64,000 nt of DNA from Streptomyces sp. NBC_01335 (lineage in GTDB: Bacteria > Actinomycetota > Actinomycetes > Streptomycetales > Streptomycetaceae). The notes under the pieces were generated by a model, which saw only the letters and a program-made list of their open reading frames with translations, was not told the DNA's origin and ran no database searches. Every line of letters begins with the position of its first letter. Positions within the stretch are counted from its first letter, which is position 1. The DNA lies in the NCBI RefSeq assembly GCF_035953295.1, contig NZ_CP108370.1, positions 2,728,001-2,792,000 of the forward strand. The letters run 5' to 3'. The position numbers and the translations under genes were made by a program. This document shows positions 11,795-18,276 of the stretch, piece by piece.

Positions 11795-14700
11795 TCACAC
11801 GGCGGCGGGTTCGTCCTCCCCTATGAAGGTGCGCCACAGCCTGGCGTACCGGCCCTGGAGGGCGAGGAGTTCGTCGTGCGAACCGTCCTCCACCACCCGG
11901 CCGTGCTCCATCACCACGACCCGGTCCGCGCGCGCCGCCGTGGTCAGCCGGTGGGCGACCACCAGCGTGGTGCGGCGCCCGGTGAGCCGGTCGGTGGCCT
12001 GGTTGACCAGGGCCTCACTGGCCAGGTCCAGGGAGGCGGTGGCCTCGTCGAGCAGCAGCACGTCGGGGTCGACCAGCTCGGCGCGGGCCAGCGCGATGAG
12101 CTGGCGCTGCCCGGCGGAGAGGTTGCGGCCCCGCTCGGCGACCTCGTGCAGATAACCGCCGTCCAGCGTCGCGATCATGTCGTGCGCGCCGACCGACCGG
12201 GCCGCCGCCTCCACCCGGGCGTCGGAGGCGTCCGGGATGCCGTACGCGATGGCGTCGCGGACCGTACCCGGGAAGAGGTACGACTCCTGCGGGACGACCC
12301 CGAGGTGGTGGCGGTACGCCGTCATGTCGAGCTTCCGCAGATCGGTGCCGTCCGCGGTGACCCGGCCGGACGTCGGGTCGTAGAACCGGGCGACCAGCTT
12401 GACCAGCGTGGACTTGCCCGCACCCGTCTCGCCGACGAACGCCACGGTCTGCCCTGCCGGAATGCGCAGGTCGATGCCGGTGAGGGCTTCCTCCTCGTCC
12501 CCGTACGCGAAGGAGACGTCCTCGAACGCGATGTCGCCGCGCAGCTCGGCCAGCTCCACCGGCGCGTCGGGGTCGGCGGTGGAGGTCGGCTCCCGCAGCA
12601 GCTCCTGGATGCGGCCGAGGGAGACGGTGGCCTGCTGGTAGCCGTCGAAGACCTGGGAGAGCTGCTGCACGGGGGCGAAGAACAGGTCGATGTAGAGGAG
12701 GTACGCGACGAGCGCGCCGACCATCAGCGTCCCGTCGTCGACCCGGCCCGCTCCGACGATCAGCACGGCGGCCGAGGCGACGGAGGAGAGCAGCTGGACG
12801 AACGGGAAGTACACCGAGATCAGCCACTGGCCGCGCACCCGCGCCTGCCGGTAGTGGGTGGAGCGCTCCGCGAACCGCGCCGCGCCGTCCCGCTCCCGGT
12901 TGAACGCCTGCACGATCCGCAGCCCGGAGACGGACTCCTGGAGGTCGGCGTTGACGGCGCCGATCCGCTCGCGGGCGAGCTGGTACGCCGCGACGCTCTT
13001 GCGGCGGAACACGGCGGTCCCGACGATCAGGAACGGCAGCGTGGCGAAGACGACGAGGGCCAGCTGCACGTCCAGGACGAGCAGGACCGCCATGATCCCG
13101 AAGAAGGTGACGGCGGAGACGAACGCGGTGACCAGACCGGTCTGCAGGAACGACGACAACGCGTCGACGTCGGTCGTCATCCGCGTCATGATCCGGCCGG
13201 TCAGCTCGCGCTCGTAGTAGTCGAGGCCGAGCCGCTGGAGCTGCGAGAAGATCTTGAGCCGCAGCGAGTACAGCACCCGCTCACCGGTCCGGCCGGTCTT
13301 GCGGGTCTCCCCGATCTGCGCCGCCCACTGCACGACGACGGCGGCCAGTGCGAGGAGCGAGGCCGTCCAGATCGCGCCGGTCGACATCTGCGTGACGCCC
13401 GAGTCGATGCCGTGCCGGATCAGTACCGGCAGCAGCAGGCCCATCCCGGCGTCCACGGCCACCAGCGCCAGGCTGACCAGCAGCACCGCCCCGAACCCGT
13501 GCAGCAGCCTGCGCAGCCCGTACGAGCCCTCCGGGCGGACGGCCCGGTCCTCGTCGATGTCCGGGACGTCCGTCGCGGGCGGCAGCGCCTCCACCTGGGC
13601 GAGCAGCTCCGGAGTGGCGGGCATTCCGGCGGTGGCCCGGTCGCGCTCCTGCTCCTTGCGGATCCAGAGCGCCGGGGTGATGCCGCGCTCGGTGTCGAAC
13701 TCGGCCTCCATCTCCTCCTGGAGCGTCCGGTCGTCCTCCAGGGGCGGAATCCGCGCCGGCCGGTGACCGGGCGAGGTGCCGCCCAGCTCGTCCGGGTCGG
13801 TGAGCAGCCGGCGGTAGAGCGCGGAGCGCCGCTCCAGCTCCTCGTGGGTGCCGACGTCGGAGAGGTGCCCGTCGTCCAGGACGGCGATGCGGTCGGCGAG
13901 GCCGAGAGTCGAGCGGCGGTGGGCGATGAGGAGCGTGGTGCGGCCCGCCATCACCTGCCGCAGGGTCTCGTGGATCTCGTGCTCGACGCGGGCGTCCACG
14001 GCCGAGGTGGCGTCGTCCAGGACGAGCAGCCGGGGATCGGTGAGGATCGCGCGGGCCAGGGCGACGCGCTGGCGCTGCCCGCCGGAGAGGGTGAGGCCGT
14101 GCTCGCCGACCTTGGTGTCGTACCCCTTCGGCAGGTCGGCGATGAACCGGTCCGCCTGCGCGGCGCGGGCGGCCGCCTCGATCTGCTCCTGGGTGGCGTC
14201 GGGGCGCCCGTAGGCGATGTTGGCGCCGACGCTCTCGGAGAAAAGGAAGCTGTCCTCGGGGACCAGCCCGATGGCGGCGCGCAGGGAGCCGAGGGTCAGC
14301 TCGCGGACGTCGTGGCCGCCGACGAGGACGGCGCCGTGCGTCACGTCGTAGAAGCGCGGCAGCAGCATGGAGACGGTGGACTTGCCGCTGCCGGACGCGC
14401 CGACCAGGGCGACGGTCTCGCCGGGGGCGATGGAGAGGGAGAAGCCCTTGAGGACGGGGCGGTAGTGGGTCTCCTCGGCGTCCTCGGTGTGGGCCGTGCG
14501 AGCTGTGTCCGCGCCGAGGCCGGGGTCCGCGGCGGGGGCTCCCGGGGGCGTGCCGTAGCCGAAACTCACGTCGTCGAACTCGACACCGGCCGGCGCGTCG
14601 GCCGGCAGCTCCTTGGTGCCGTCGGCGAACGTCGGCTCGGTGTCGATCAGCTCCAGCACCCGGTCCACACCGGCGCGGGCCTGCTGGCCCACGGTGAGGA

Positions 14701-15760
14701 CCACGGCGAGCATCCGGACCGGCCCGACGAGCTGTGCGAGGTACGAGGAGAACGCGACGAACGTGCCGAGGGTGATCTGGCCCCGGGTCGCCAGCCAGCC
14801 GCCCAGCGCCAGCATCGCGACCTGCCCGAGCGCGGGCACGGCCTGGAGCGCGGGGGTGTAGCGGGCGTTCAGCCGGATGGTGCGCATGCGGCCGGCGAAG
14901 AGCCGGCGGCCCACCTCGCGGAGCTTCCCGGTCTCCTGCTCCTCCTGGCCGAACCCCTTGACGACCCGGACCCCGGAGACGGCCCCGTCGACCACCCCGG
15001 CAACGGCGGCGGCCTGGCTCTGGGCGTACCAGGTGGCGGGGAAGAGGCGGGCCCGGGAGCGGCGGGCGATGAACCAGATCGCGGGCGCGACGGCGACGGC
15101 GACCAGGGTCAGCACCGGCGAGAGCCACGCCATGATCACCAGGGAGACGAGGAAGAGCAGGACGTTCCCGATGGTCATCGGGAGCATGAAGAGCAGGCTC
15201 TGGATGAGCTGCAGGTCGCTGGTGGCCCGGCCGACGACCTGGCCCGTCGACAGCTCGTCCTGGCGTCTGCCGTCGAGCTTGGTGATCGTCGCGTACATCT
15301 CGGTACGGAGGTCGTGCTGTACGTCGAGGGCGAGCCGGCCGCCGTAGTAGCGGCGGACGAACGCGGTGACGTAGATGACGACCGCCGCCCCTATCAGCAG
15401 GCCGGTCCAGACGGCGAGTGAGCGGGTGTGCGTGGTGACGACGTCATCGATGATCACCTTGGTGATCAGCGGGACCAGCGCCATCACCGCCATCCCGGCG
15501 AGGGAGGCGCCGAGCGCCAGGATCACGTCGCGGCGGTAGCGCCAGGCGTAGCCGGTGAGGCGGCGGGCCCAGCCTTGGGGGGGCTGGGGGGCTTGGGACT
15601 GGGAGGCCTGGGGCTGGGAGGCCTGAGGCTGGGGGGCGGGGCGCCCTGATTGGTCGGGGGTCTGCTCGGTCGGCGCCGGTTGTCCGGTGACCGCCGGTTG
15701 TCCGGGGGTCCGTTCGCCGGGGCCCGGTTCTCCCGATCCCTGTTGTTCTGCGCCCGCCAC
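11795..15760 (-). CDS. Single-chain ABC exporter (two TMD-NBD halves), asymmetric ATP sites
   Basis: 1321 aa from GTG at 15760, chosen because GGGAGG lies six bases upstream; an ATG at 15889 is possible. A Pro/Gln-rich disordered N-terminus of about 65 aa precedes the first six-helix domain. NBD1 has Walker A GASGSGKST (about 453), signature LSGGQ and Walker B LLVLDDATSAVD (about 580). Then a linker, the second six-helix domain, and NBD2 with GETGAGKST (about 1110), signature LSAGQ and LLLDEATASLD (about 1240). NBD1 has Asp where the catalytic Glu should be and NBD2 has an altered signature; together these form one degenerate ATP site, as in heterodimeric exporters such as TM287/288 or BmrCD. 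It is probably a lipid or drug exporter. Substrate unknown. Confidence 0.88.
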   Translation of the reverse strand: MAGAEQQGSGEPGPGERTPGQPAVTGQPAPTEQTPDQSGRPAPQPQASQPQASQSQAPQPPQGWARRLTGYAWRYRRDVILALGASLAGMAVMALVPLITKVIIDDVVTTHTRSLAVWTGLLIGAAVVIYVTAFVRRYYGGRLALDVQHDLRTEMYATITKLDGRRQDELSTGQVVGRATSDLQLIQSLLFMLPMTIGNVLLFLVSLVIMAWLSPVLTLVAVAVAPAIWFIARRSRARLFPATWYAQSQAAAVAGVVDGAVSGVRVVKGFGQEEQETGKLREVGRRLFAGRMRTIRLNARYTPALQAVPALGQVAMLALGGWLATRGQITLGTFVAFSSYLAQLVGPVRMLAVVLTVGQQARAGVDRVLELIDTEPTFADGTKELPADAPAGVEFDDVSFGYGTPPGAPAADPGLGADTARTAHTEDAEETHYRPVLKGFSLSIAPGETVALVGASGSGKSTVSMLLPRFYDVTHGAVLVGGHDVRELTLGSLRAAIGLVPEDSFLFSESVGANIAYGRPDATQEQIEAAARAAQADRFIADLPKGYDTKVGEHGLTLSGGQRQRVALARAILTDPRLLVLDDATSAVDARVEHEIHETLRQVMAGRTTLLIAHRRSTLGLADRIAVLDDGHLSDVGTHEELERRSALYRRLLTDPDELGGTSPGHRPARIPPLEDDRTLQEEMEAEFDTERGITPALWIRKEQERDRATAGMPATPELLAQVEALPPATDVPDIDEDRAVRPEGSYGLRRLLHGFGAVLLVSLALVAVDAGMGLLLPVLIRHGIDSGVTQMSTGAIWTASLLALAAVVVQWAAQIGETRKTGRTGERVLYSLRLKIFSQLQRLGLDYYERELTGRIMTRMTTDVDALSSFLQTGLVTAFVSAVTFFGIMAVLLVLDVQLALVVFATLPFLIVGTAVFRRKSVAAYQLARERIGAVNADLQESVSGLRIVQAFNRERDGAARFAERSTHYRQARVRGQWLISVYFPFVQLLSSVASAAVLIVGAGRVDDGTLMVGALVAYLLYIDLFFAPVQQLSQVFDGYQQATVSLGRIQELLREPTSTADPDAPVELAELRGDIAFEDVSFAYGDEEEALTGIDLRIPAGQTVAFVGETGAGKSTLVKLVARFYDPTSGRVTADGTDLRKLDMTAYRHHLGVVPQESYLFPGTVRDAIAYGIPDASDARVEAAARSVGAHDMIATLDGGYLHEVAERGRNLSAGQRQLIALARAELVDPDVLLLDEATASLDLASEALVNQATDRLTGRRTTLVVAHRLTTAARADRVVVMEHGRVVEDGSHDELLALQGRYARLWRTFIGEDEPAAV

Positions 15761-16015
15761 GGATGCCTCCCGATCGCCCTGCTGCCGCCTGCGAACGTGC
15801 TGTCGCGTGACGCCACTCCCTCTGATCTTCCGCAACGCACCAACGCGCTGGGCTGCGGATTTCATCCCGCCGCAACAAATGCCAGTCAATGGTCCCGAGG
15901 TAAATCACCCGATCGGCTGAAGTCGGGGTTCGGCCCCCTACGCACGTTCGATCGCCGACTACGGTGGGTAATCAAGTCGGCGAGCGGCTCTGCCGGAGGG
16001 GCGGAGTCAGGAATG

Positions 16016-16052
16016 TCGGGTCTTCGGGAGTTGTCGGGTCTTCGGGAGCCGG
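16016..16052. repeat. 18-bp direct repeat in the leader of the Cas11c-like gene
   Basis: TGTCGGGTCTTCGGGAGT is followed at once by TGTCGGGTCTTCGGGAGC, about 30 bases upstream of the start at 16082. Function unknown; it lies in the probable 5' leader. Confidence 0.6.
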
Positions 16053-16081
16053 AGGCCGCGACCGAGGGGGAGGGGGACTCC

Positions 16082-16453
16082 ATGAGCGAGGAGAAGCCGA
16101 GGAGCGAGGCGTACCGCTGCGGTCAGGTGTACGCGGTGATCGAGGTGCTGCAGGCTCTGCGTCCGGGCGGCGGTTGGAAGCTGTCCGGGGAGGGCTACCG
16201 CATCGACACCTCCGTAACGCCCATGACCAATCTGCGGATCGCCATGTCCGAGGTGGGCAAGCACTACATCGAGGCGCGACTCAGGCATCCGGTCGGCGAG
16301 GTGGACAAGGTCTTCGGCATGCTGCGGGATGCCATGCCGTTGAAGAACGACTTCCCCGGCCGTCTGGAGGGCGAGGCGCCCGGCGAATTCCTCCAGGGCC
16401 GCGAGGACCAGATAGCGCTCATCAAGAAGGAGACCAGCCTGCGCCTGCGCTGA
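16082..16453 (+). CDS. Orphan small protein resembling Cas11c (C-terminal part of Cas8c/Csd1)
   Basis: 123 aa from ATG at 16082, preceded by GAGGGGGA. The opening AYRCGQVYAVIEVLQ and the closing DFPGRLEGEAPGEFLQG, followed by EDQIALIKKE, match the pattern I remember for the C-terminal region of type I-C Cas8c/Csd1: AY..GRLFAxLExxQ, a Thr-Pro helix, an H-Y/H helix, then FPxxLxxExxGxFxxGxxxQ. In type I-C systems that region is also made separately as the Cas11c small subunit of roughly 120-130 aa, the same length as here. No cas gene or repeat array is nearby; the neighbours are an ABC exporter and a TPP enzyme. The homology is from pattern memory and needs a profile search; any role is unknown. 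Confidence 0.6.
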   Translation: MSEEKPRSEAYRCGQVYAVIEVLQALRPGGGWKLSGEGYRIDTSVTPMTNLRIAMSEVGKHYIEARLRHPVGEVDKVFGMLRDAMPLKNDFPGRLEGEAPGEFLQGREDQIALIKKETSLRLR

Positions 16454-16489
16454 ACTCGCGCACGCCGGTCTCCCTCTCCTCCCCCGCCC

Positions 16490-16528
16490 GGGGCTGCCGT
16501 CCGGGGCTGCCTTCCGGGGCTGCCTTCC
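16490..16528. repeat. 13-bp tandem repeat, three units
   Basis: GGGGCTGCCGTCC, GGGGCTGCCTTCC and GGGGCTGCCTTCC follow one another between the converging Cas11c-like and TPP-enzyme genes. Confidence 0.8.
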
Positions 16529-16593
16529 GGGCGGCCCTCCTGGTCGGTGGCCCTGGTCGCCCGGGTCGGCGGCCTCCGTCCGGGCGCCTCCGG

Positions 16594-18276
16594 CTACAGA
16601 TGCGTCGGGGCGAACATCCTGAGCAGTGCCGGGAGCACGACCACGGAGGGGCCGGGCTCGGCTAGTGCCTTCGCCAGGTCGGCGGCGAGGGCGTCCGGTG
16701 AGGTGCGGACGGCCGGGACGCCGAAGGACTCGGCGAGAGCGACGAAGTCCGGGCGGGCCAGCTCGGTGGCGGTGGCCTCGCCGAAGGCGCCCGTCATGTA
16801 CTCGCGCAGGATGCCGTAGCCGCCGTCGTCGACGATCAGCCAGGTGACCGGGAGGTCGTACTGGCGGGCGGTGGCGAGCTCGGCGATGGAGTACATCGAG
16901 CCGCCGTCGCCGGAGACCGCGAGTACCGGCCGGGTCGGGTCGGCGGCGGCCGCTCCGAGGGCCGCAGGGAAGGCGTAGCCGAGACCGCCGGCGCCTTGGG
17001 CGGAGTGCATGGTGTTGGGGTGGCGGGCGTCGAAGGCGGACCAGGCCCAGTAGGCCAGGATCGTCATGTCCCAGAAGCTGGGCGCGGTGTCCGGGAGCGC
17101 CTCGCGGACGGAGGCCAGGACGCGCTGCTCCAGGGTGAGGTCCTGGGCCTCGATGCGGGCCCGGACCTGCTCCAGCAGGGTCCGGACGCGCATCGCCGCG
17201 GCGGGGTCCTCGCGGGTCTCGACCGCTTCCAGGAGGTCGGCGAGGGCCTCGCGGGCGTCCGAGTGGATGCCGAGGGCGGGGTGGTTGGACTCCAGCTTCC
17301 CGGCGTCGGCCTCGATCTGGATGACCCGGCCCCGGGGGCTGAAGGTGTGGTAGTTCGAGGAGAGCTCGCCGAGTCCGGAGCCGATGACGAGGAGGACGTC
17401 GGCGGACTCCAGGAAGTCGGTGGTGTGCCGGTCCTCCAGCCAGGACTGGAGCGAGAGGGGGTGCTCCCAGGGGAAGGCGCCCTTGCCGCCGAAGGTGGTG
17501 ACGACCGGGGCGTCCAGCTTCTCGGCGAGGGCGAGCAGCTTGCCGCTCGCGTCGGAGCGGACGACCCCACCGCCCGCGATGATCGCGGGGCGTTCGGCGC
17601 GGGAGAGCAGCCGGGCGGCGGTGAGCGTCAGCTCGGGGCGGGGGTAGAGCTCGCGCGGGGTGGCGTCCATCGCGGAGACCGGCGGCAGCGTGGTCTCGGC
17701 GAGCAGCACGTCCTGCGGGATCTCGATCCAGACCGGCCCGTGCGGGGCGGTGAGGGCCGACTCCCAGGCGGCGGCGATGGCGGAGGGGATCTGTGAGGCG
17801 GTCCGCACGGTGTGGACGGACTTCACCACGTCGCGGAAGGAGGCCTTCTGGTCGCGCAGCTCGTGGAGGTAGCCGTGCCGGCCGCCGCCGAGGCCGGCGG
17901 TCGGGATCTGGCTGGAGATCGCGAGGACCGGCGCGGAGGCGGCTGCCGCCTCCTGGAGGGCGGCGAGCGAGGTCAGCGCGCCGGGGCCGGTGGAGAGGAG
18001 CAGCGGGGCGACCTCTCCGGTGATGCGGCCGTAGGCGTCGGCCGCGAAGCCCGCGTTGTTCTCGACGCGGAGTCCGACGTACGAGAGGGAGGAGCGGCGC
18101 AGGGCGTCGAACATGCCGAGCGCGTGCTGGCCGGGCAGGCCGAAGACGGTGGTCGCGCCGAGGCCCTGGAGGGACTCGACGACGAGGTCACCGCCGTTGC
18201 GGCCGGGCGGCGGGTTGAGTGCGGCTTCGGCCTGGGCCTCGGTGAGGCGGGGCCGGTCGTCGTGGTCGTGGCTCAC
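16594..18276 (-). CDS. Thiamine diphosphate-dependent decarboxylase, AruI/acetolactate-synthase-like
   Basis: 560 aa from GTG at 18276, overlapping the agmatinase stop as GTGA (18273-18276). The N-terminal pyrimidine-binding domain includes [15 protein letters not shown], whose Glu activates the cofactor. The C-terminal domain has [12 protein letters not shown] and, about 25 residues on, VDDGGYG, where the usual Asn-Asn of the GDG-N26-NN motif reads Asp-Asp. The length equals that of the Pseudomonas 2-ketoarginine decarboxylase AruI (about 559 aa), and coupling to a ureohydrolase suits that step of arginine transaminase catabolism: 2-ketoarginine to guanidinobutyraldehyde. This is inference from context; benzoylformate- or oxalyl-type decarboxylases share the fold. 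Confidence 0.8.

Follow-up and report, generated by a model that had tools for sequence, protein, structure and literature searches.

Known systems and the locus studied

In type I-C systems of clustered regularly interspaced short palindromic repeats (CRISPR), the small subunit Cas11c is made through internal translation of cas8c. The present analysis concerns a free-standing Cas11c-like gene of Streptomyces sp. NBC_01335, found in a stretch of 64,000 nucleotides (nt), hereafter the window (C1:2728001-2792000 of the 8.36-Mb host genome); coordinates given without a prefix are those of the window. In Desulfovibrio vulgaris, Cas11c is described as identical to the C-terminus of Cas8c (PDB 7kha, 8dej and 9jhb; PMC7684278). 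The window gene is:

16082..16453, plus strand: free-standing Cas11c-like gene, 123 amino acids (aa), ATG at 16082, stop at 16451-16453

Relative to Cas11c, the window gene is free, has its own start and lies in a slot without the Cas8c N-terminal part, cas5c or cas7c, and it belongs to a free family in which most of the conserved basic positions have been lost. It is homologous to the C-terminal about 120 residues of Cas8c/Csd1 (TIGR01863, PF09709) but is a free protein without the N-terminal part, and it does not lie between cas8e and cas7e, as does the gene of the type I-E small subunit Cse2 (Cas11e). Solo Cas genes outside CRISPR-cas loci, such as solo-Cas4 (PMC5704561), and exapted CRISPR parts (PMC8730458, PMC12669027) have been reported; as those reports outline them, the window gene resembles them as a Cas protein kept outside CRISPR-cas loci, but unlike solo-Cas4 it encodes a structural small subunit rather than a nuclease and is kept at a single slot within one genus. 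Type IV-B Cas11 is described as part of an operon with csf1-3 in an array-less setting (PMC8175902). The window gene shares with it the Cas11-like nature and the array-less setting, but no operon partner common to its loci was seen (csf genes were not searched for). Among the titles and abstract openings listed in searches of open-licence literature, no free-standing Cas11c or Cas8c C-terminal family was named. Most of the exapted CRISPR parts known to us are nucleases, integrases or whole derived systems.

The evidence argues with good confidence that the stretch coding for Cas11c in a type I-C cas8c gene was captured in a Streptomyces slot and now has a Cascade-independent role. The gene would stem from the Cas11c-encoding 3' part of cas8c, would have been captured, probably once in Streptomyces history, between an exporter gene and a thiamine-pyrophosphate (TPP) enzyme gene, and would afterwards have been inherited mostly vertically, with losses; its product would work without Cascade. 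The original prediction, made from the window alone, had offered among its options an exapted subunit or a leftover of CRISPR retained for a different use. The common slot, the failure to find there the cas genes looked for, selection that is mostly purifying and a presence not associated with type I-C or I-E systems all agree with this. Its observation was right and its interpretation largely so. A single structural small subunit apart from cas genes, kept in part of the genus Streptomyces outside any CRISPR locus, offers a tractable test of what the Cas11 fold does alone. It also brings a caution, in that a CRISPR system should not be deduced from a Cas8c or Csd1 match of a short protein in Streptomyces.

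Homology to Cas8c and Cas11c

Searched alone, the window protein had no match in Pfam, NCBIfam or PDB and one weak match in PADLOC (Cas8c positions 419-516 of 525, E value 0.0059). A protein search of 392 Streptomyces genomes (E ≤0.01) gave 32 matches in 31 genomes; 23 rows, 22-37% identical to the window protein, were aligned as profile A1, leaving out L023 (altered frame), L025, L026, L028 and L030-L032 (short or long-frame partial matches) and two matches without a locus. The commonest PADLOC Cas8c model was matched by 12 of these 23 members (best E over all models 1.8e-7), PF09709 Cas_Csd1 by 10 (best E 2e-7) and TIGR01863 by 4 (best E 3.8e-5). The TIGR01863 cut-off (218.65 bits) was far from reached, because the free members match the end of the model only. 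The remaining Pfam matches came from single members at E ≥0.019.

All ten PDB sequences matched by A1 at E ≤10 were type I-C Cas11 or Cas8. An enlarged profile of 57 rows (A2; L054, L102, L120 and L125, with altered or broken frames, excluded) gave 15 PDB matches with the same molecules on top (best E 2.6e-8), against a background of a designed helical protein (E 8e-4, among the weaker Cas11/Cas8 matches) and an oxidoreductase (E 0.05). The free family was also compared, in a single pairwise hhalign run, with the C-terminal domains of 11 actinobacterial Cas8c proteins (probability 98.5, E 1.8e-15); these domains were found first via A1, nine of them in genomes where TIGR01863 also finds full Cas8c. 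Five helices were predicted in the window protein (residues 9-25, 37-45, 47-68, 71-84 and 99-117), and its predicted model had the all-helical Cas11c fold, with a length resembling that of Cas11c. The original prediction was to be abandoned if both a profile match to the Cas8c C-terminus and the Cas11 fold were lacking; both were found, and the claimed kinship to the Cas8c/Csd1 C-terminal domain held once relatives had been added. As judged by these profile comparisons, the window protein is a true homologue of the Cas8c C-terminus/Cas11c.

The 123-aa frame and its letters were also as first quoted, and for the claimed ribosome site there is the following candidate stretch:

16064..16077, plus strand: candidate ribosome-binding site, G/A-rich, read from the sequence, directly 5' of the Cas11c-like gene

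Of 56 upstream regions in the family, the window's among them, 38 had a Shine-Dalgarno-like 5-mer within 22 nt. A codon-usage gene finder trained on four neighbouring genes called the same ends, and the G+C content per codon position was 0.66/0.42/0.90. The frame has the codon pattern of a Streptomyces gene.

PHROGs gave nothing better than E 0.034. Four phage proteins of 98-157 aa in the viral structure library BFVD (A0A8S5MS93, A0A8S5LWF5, A0A8S5MN34 and A0A8S5QYQ3) were weakly like the model (Foldseek probability 0.87-1.00, E 0.058-0.46, template-modelling score about 0.5), and may give a weak lead toward a wider fold family.

Distribution and chromosomal slot

With profile A1 the free-standing gene was found in at least 59 of the 392 Streptomyces genomes, the window's included; carrier counts are lower bounds, as the best 11 candidates per genome were scored. 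Seventy-two genomes were matched, comprising the 59 carriers, eight with a Cas8c match only, four (G101, G139, G281 and G381) with short partial matches in long frames and one (G370) with a remnant. The 60 loci compared with the window came from 59 genomes, namely the 58 other carriers (G190 twice) and G516, obtained in a class-wide search. In the window the gene is flanked by:

11795..15889, minus strand: divergent neighbour, double ATP-binding cassette (ABC) exporter with two ABC_membrane and two ABC_tran stretches (Pfam)
16594..18276, minus strand: convergent neighbour, TPP enzyme with TPP_enzyme_N, M and C (Pfam)

The exporter start is uncertain (15889 upstream-most vs 15526 from the gene finder). 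Between the Cas11c-like gene and the upstream-most of these lie 192 nt. The TPP-enzyme gene, which is followed by an arginase-family gene and a sodium:solute symporter gene, has its 3' end 140 nt from the Cas11c-like gene.

A survey of Streptomyces homologues for conserved neighbours, proposed with the original prediction, placed all 60 other loci in this exporter/TPP-enzyme slot. Both genes were inside the fetched stretch in 51 loci, the TPP gene alone in 3, the ABC gene alone in 6 and neither in none (ABC exporter in 57/60, TPP enzyme in 54/60), and the TPP gene was opposite in strand to the Cas11c-like gene in 54 of 54. Both neighbours were close (TPP ≤600 nt, ABC ≤1500 nt) in 28 loci; in the rest, other genes filled as much as about 7 kb in between. 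The exporter stretch matched lay within 300 nt of the gene in 25 of 57 loci, with a median of 1135 nt. This common slot leaves room for a local role, such as that of a regulator or adaptor of the host linked to the exporter, from which the gene is divergent, or to the TPP/arginase/symporter genes. Such a role is nonetheless rather unlikely, as extra genes often lie in between and both neighbours persist in the 20 carrier-free slots examined. The TPP gene was found at E ≤1e-100 in 82 of 101 genomes, and the ABC gene was kept in all 20 slots examined from genomes without a Cas11c-like match, in which profile A2 with filters off gave a best E of 0.54. With the flanks kept in its absence, many lineages have either lost the gene or never had it.

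When L041, a more central member, was used as the query against genome contigs, six named loci were obtained, all from Streptomyces (five full-length, one over 34 residues). Homologues were present in records of S. griseus and S. anulatus, including a 100% match to L041 in S. anulatus JCM 4721 (NZ_BMVK01000017.1), which makes the role directly testable. Scans of genome and viral contigs with the window protein gave no relative, probably because the window copy is so diverged; the viral contigs gave none with L041, and tblastn of phage and plasmid collections with either protein gave no match. No free-standing member was found outside Streptomyces in a class search (296 genomes, 114 genera) or a family search (150 genomes, 17 genera); the non-Streptomyces matches, in five and six genomes respectively, fell within frames of 385-799 aa and included some short partial ones.

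Residue comparison with Cas8c

A joint alignment was made of 57 free rows and the 11 actinobacterial Cas8c rows (five near-copies). The Cas8c-domain core was kept in the free family at G14, A18, P47, A73, F103 and G106, and Q110 in 79%; the window protein has E at position 73. Seven positions (15, 38, 55, 63, 67, 77 and 111) were basic in 82-100% of Cas8c rows; in the free rows position 15 was basic in 56% and the other six in just 0-21%. Position 68 was basic in 86% of free vs 9% of Cas8c rows and, followed by G69, is characteristic of the free family rather than of the Cas8c rows, as is proline 86 (81% of free rows). The net charge was +1 for the window protein and +1.8 on average for the free family vs +4.0 in the Cas8c rows. 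In Cas11c, a positively charged channel is proposed as the path along which the non-target strand is held (PMC7684278). The lost basic positions may thus count against DNA binding in the Cas11c manner, and the surface of the free family appears re-made relative to Cas8c; this is a hint rather than proof.

CRISPR context

The claim that no CRISPR locus accompanies the gene stood for the window and failed for the genome. A repeat search of the 64-kb window listed just seven families, with two or three short direct repeats each and no likeness to an array; in a scripted scan no 20-mer occurred three times at 50-80 nt spacing. By tblastn (E 1e-3), cas5c, cas7c and the Cas8c N-terminal part were found neither in the window nor in the 60 other loci; the same queries matched 8 of 8 type I-C loci, one being their own source. 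Genome-wide searches for Cas8c, Cas1, Cas7c and Cas8e gave nothing at the position of the window, and neither Cas8c nor Cas7c was found in the host genome (Cas5c was not searched genome-wide). The window gene is thus a free gene with its own start, inside neither cas8c nor a type I-C operon. Two other host loci were found:

C1 about 6729400-6738200 (L208:7406-16198): host type I-E cas genes and CRISPR-like repeats, Cas3 piece partial
C1 about 7520261-7521664 (L206:12261-13664): truncated type I-C cas1 frame, TIGR03640 positions 75-291 of 340, E 8.9e-79, below cut-off

Some 4 Mb away from the window gene, the type I-E locus at C1:6.73 Mb contains Cas8e, Cas7e, Cas5e, Cas6e, Cas1e, Cas2e and part of Cas3, and its cse2 position is taken by a gene of 253 aa (L208:12797-13558) without an NCBIfam match. 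The site at C1:7.52 Mb is read as the remains of a type I-C locus; its decayed repeats look like Streptomyces type I-C array repeats. By eye, the frame of the truncated cas1 runs on into an apparent start of cas2, and the decayed repeats follow at about 73 nt spacing (four by repeat search, a fifth by eye).

TIGR01863 found Cas8c in 10 of 392 Streptomyces genomes, 9 of them over the cut-off, and only one of the 59 carriers had it vs 9 of 333 other genomes (p = 1). Among 40 carriers, 13 had Cas8e, one of these with a score below cut-off, vs 12 of 40 others (p = 1), a comparison covering 40 of the 59 carriers and 40 non-carriers, all with the TPP gene. Presence of the free gene is not linked to type I-C or I-E. 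This speaks against a small subunit supplied in trans to a CRISPR Cascade, whether of type I-C or the host's own type I-E, as does the loss of six of the seven conserved basic positions. Such a subunit is very improbable, even though the predicted fold and length are like those of Cas11c, the host has a type I-E locus and one carrier (G075) has a full Cas8c on another contig.

CRISPR arrays usually have near-identical repeats. Two Streptomyces type I-C arrays (L131:11258-14728 and L137:4782-7865) had, in a repeat search, repeats widely unlike each other.

Descent and selection

In an unrooted tree (duplicates L115 and L195 excluded, L194 included), the 57 free members and 18 Cas8c domains were split by one branch with support 100/100. 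The same tree is compatible with a free gene that was ancestral and later fused to Cas8 as its C-terminal domain; this order of events seems quite remote, since free-standing members were found in Streptomyces only and matches elsewhere lie in the long frames described above. Over 51 loci the mean pairwise identity was 0.31 for the free protein vs 0.86 for the TPP enzyme, and their distances were correlated (Spearman 0.455, 0 of 999 permutations as high), as expected under mostly vertical descent, with a moderate fit. The median dN/dS (nonsynonymous over synonymous change) of 46 pairs was 0.47 for the free gene vs 0.14 for the TPP gene; pairs were more than 60% identical and share branches, and dS is rough under the strong GC bias. 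The Cas11c-like gene evolves fast under mostly purifying selection.

Several observations weigh against capture and retention of a functional gene. Four of the 60 other loci (L054, L102, L120 and L125) have altered or broken frames and G370 keeps a remnant only, and the gene is therefore dispensable; the gene finder labelled the Cas11c-like gene in 48 of the 60. The window copy has the longest branch of the free family (1.29 changes per column) and is at best 38% identical to another row of the tree, and so could be drifting, though it is intact. Foldseek gave no match at E ≤0.001 (best 1.2e-3). Over 55 pairs the dN/dS of the free gene ranged from 0.27 to 1.0 (median 0.50), a range that allows weak constraint, and in the 46 pairs its median dS was twice that of the TPP gene (0.43 vs 0.22). 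Lastly, the tree, being unrooted, is no proof of which way descent ran. The long branch and the weak or absent scores of the window protein alone would both suit a likeness of helices due to chance, or an open frame in decay, but this reading is extremely improbable in view of the profile, fold and selection results and of the unbroken frame of 118-129 aa in 56 of the 60 other loci.

Possible roles

If the Cas11c part of cas8c was captured as proposed, the re-surfaced helical bundle might serve as a binding or adaptor module for nucleic acid or protein. A conflict-type role for such a module, for example in anti-phage or anti-plasmid defence or its regulation, is a tentative guess suggested by the fast evolution and patchy presence. 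Put more broadly, and still short of an even chance, the family could represent a solo Cas11. In this view a structural subunit from a CRISPR effector would have been domesticated in one Streptomyces slot and re-surfaced, and would now work independently of CRISPR as a single-gene factor, binding nucleic acid or protein in host-parasite conflict or regulation.

In one concrete form of the captured-subunit explanation, the protein would act in defence or counter-defence, and its slot would be a place where small conflict genes are exchanged. The fast evolution beside conserved neighbours and the patchy presence fit this, as do an endonuclease I gene in some loci and, in 4 of the 20 carrier-free slots (L177, L178, L179 and L193), a Gp49-like/helix-turn-helix (HTH) pair or an HTH gene alone. 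It is doubtful all the same, because the distances carry a vertical signal, searches of phage and plasmid collections and of viral contigs, at the sensitivity they had, did not find the free protein, slots lacking the Cas11c-like gene can contain the endonuclease I gene as well, and no same-strand partner gene was common to the loci. The last result likewise gives no support to the unrecognised defence or regulatory unit with partner genes that had been suggested at first.

Other features of the slot

The endonuclease I gene (PF04231, Pfam on L095 only; L095:8227-9030, with similar genes elsewhere) looks secreted by eye and occurs in the slot of one species group with or without the Cas11c-like gene. 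It lies 3' of the gene in several loci and was rejected as an operon partner, being present also in slots without it (L186). The Gp49-like (DUF891) and HTH pair, which is toxin-antitoxin-like, was seen in the carrier-free ABC-TPP slots L177:72-868 and L178:11014-11810 (Pfam on L177 only), and the HTH gene alone in L179:11384-11800 and L193:11559-11903.

An Rfam scan of 15000-17000 gave no match. A k-mer search for a promoter motif of the Cas11c-like gene yielded a motif that was rejected, as it is part of the exporter side and occurs whether the gene is there or not (56/60 carrier loci, 17/20 carrier-free slots, plus the window). A conserved element lies 5' of the ABC-exporter gene (window 15830-15878); in minus-strand reading, TTGTTGCGGCGGGATGAAATCC begins a short frame, often M-K-S-x-x-x-x-V-G-A-F-R. 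The element was found in 73 of 81 loci searched, with or without the Cas11c-like gene, and in 31 of the 73 a stop follows after 12 codons. It may be a leader peptide, the start of the exporter gene or an operator. In the window copy the frame has no stop after 12 codons and continues in frame.
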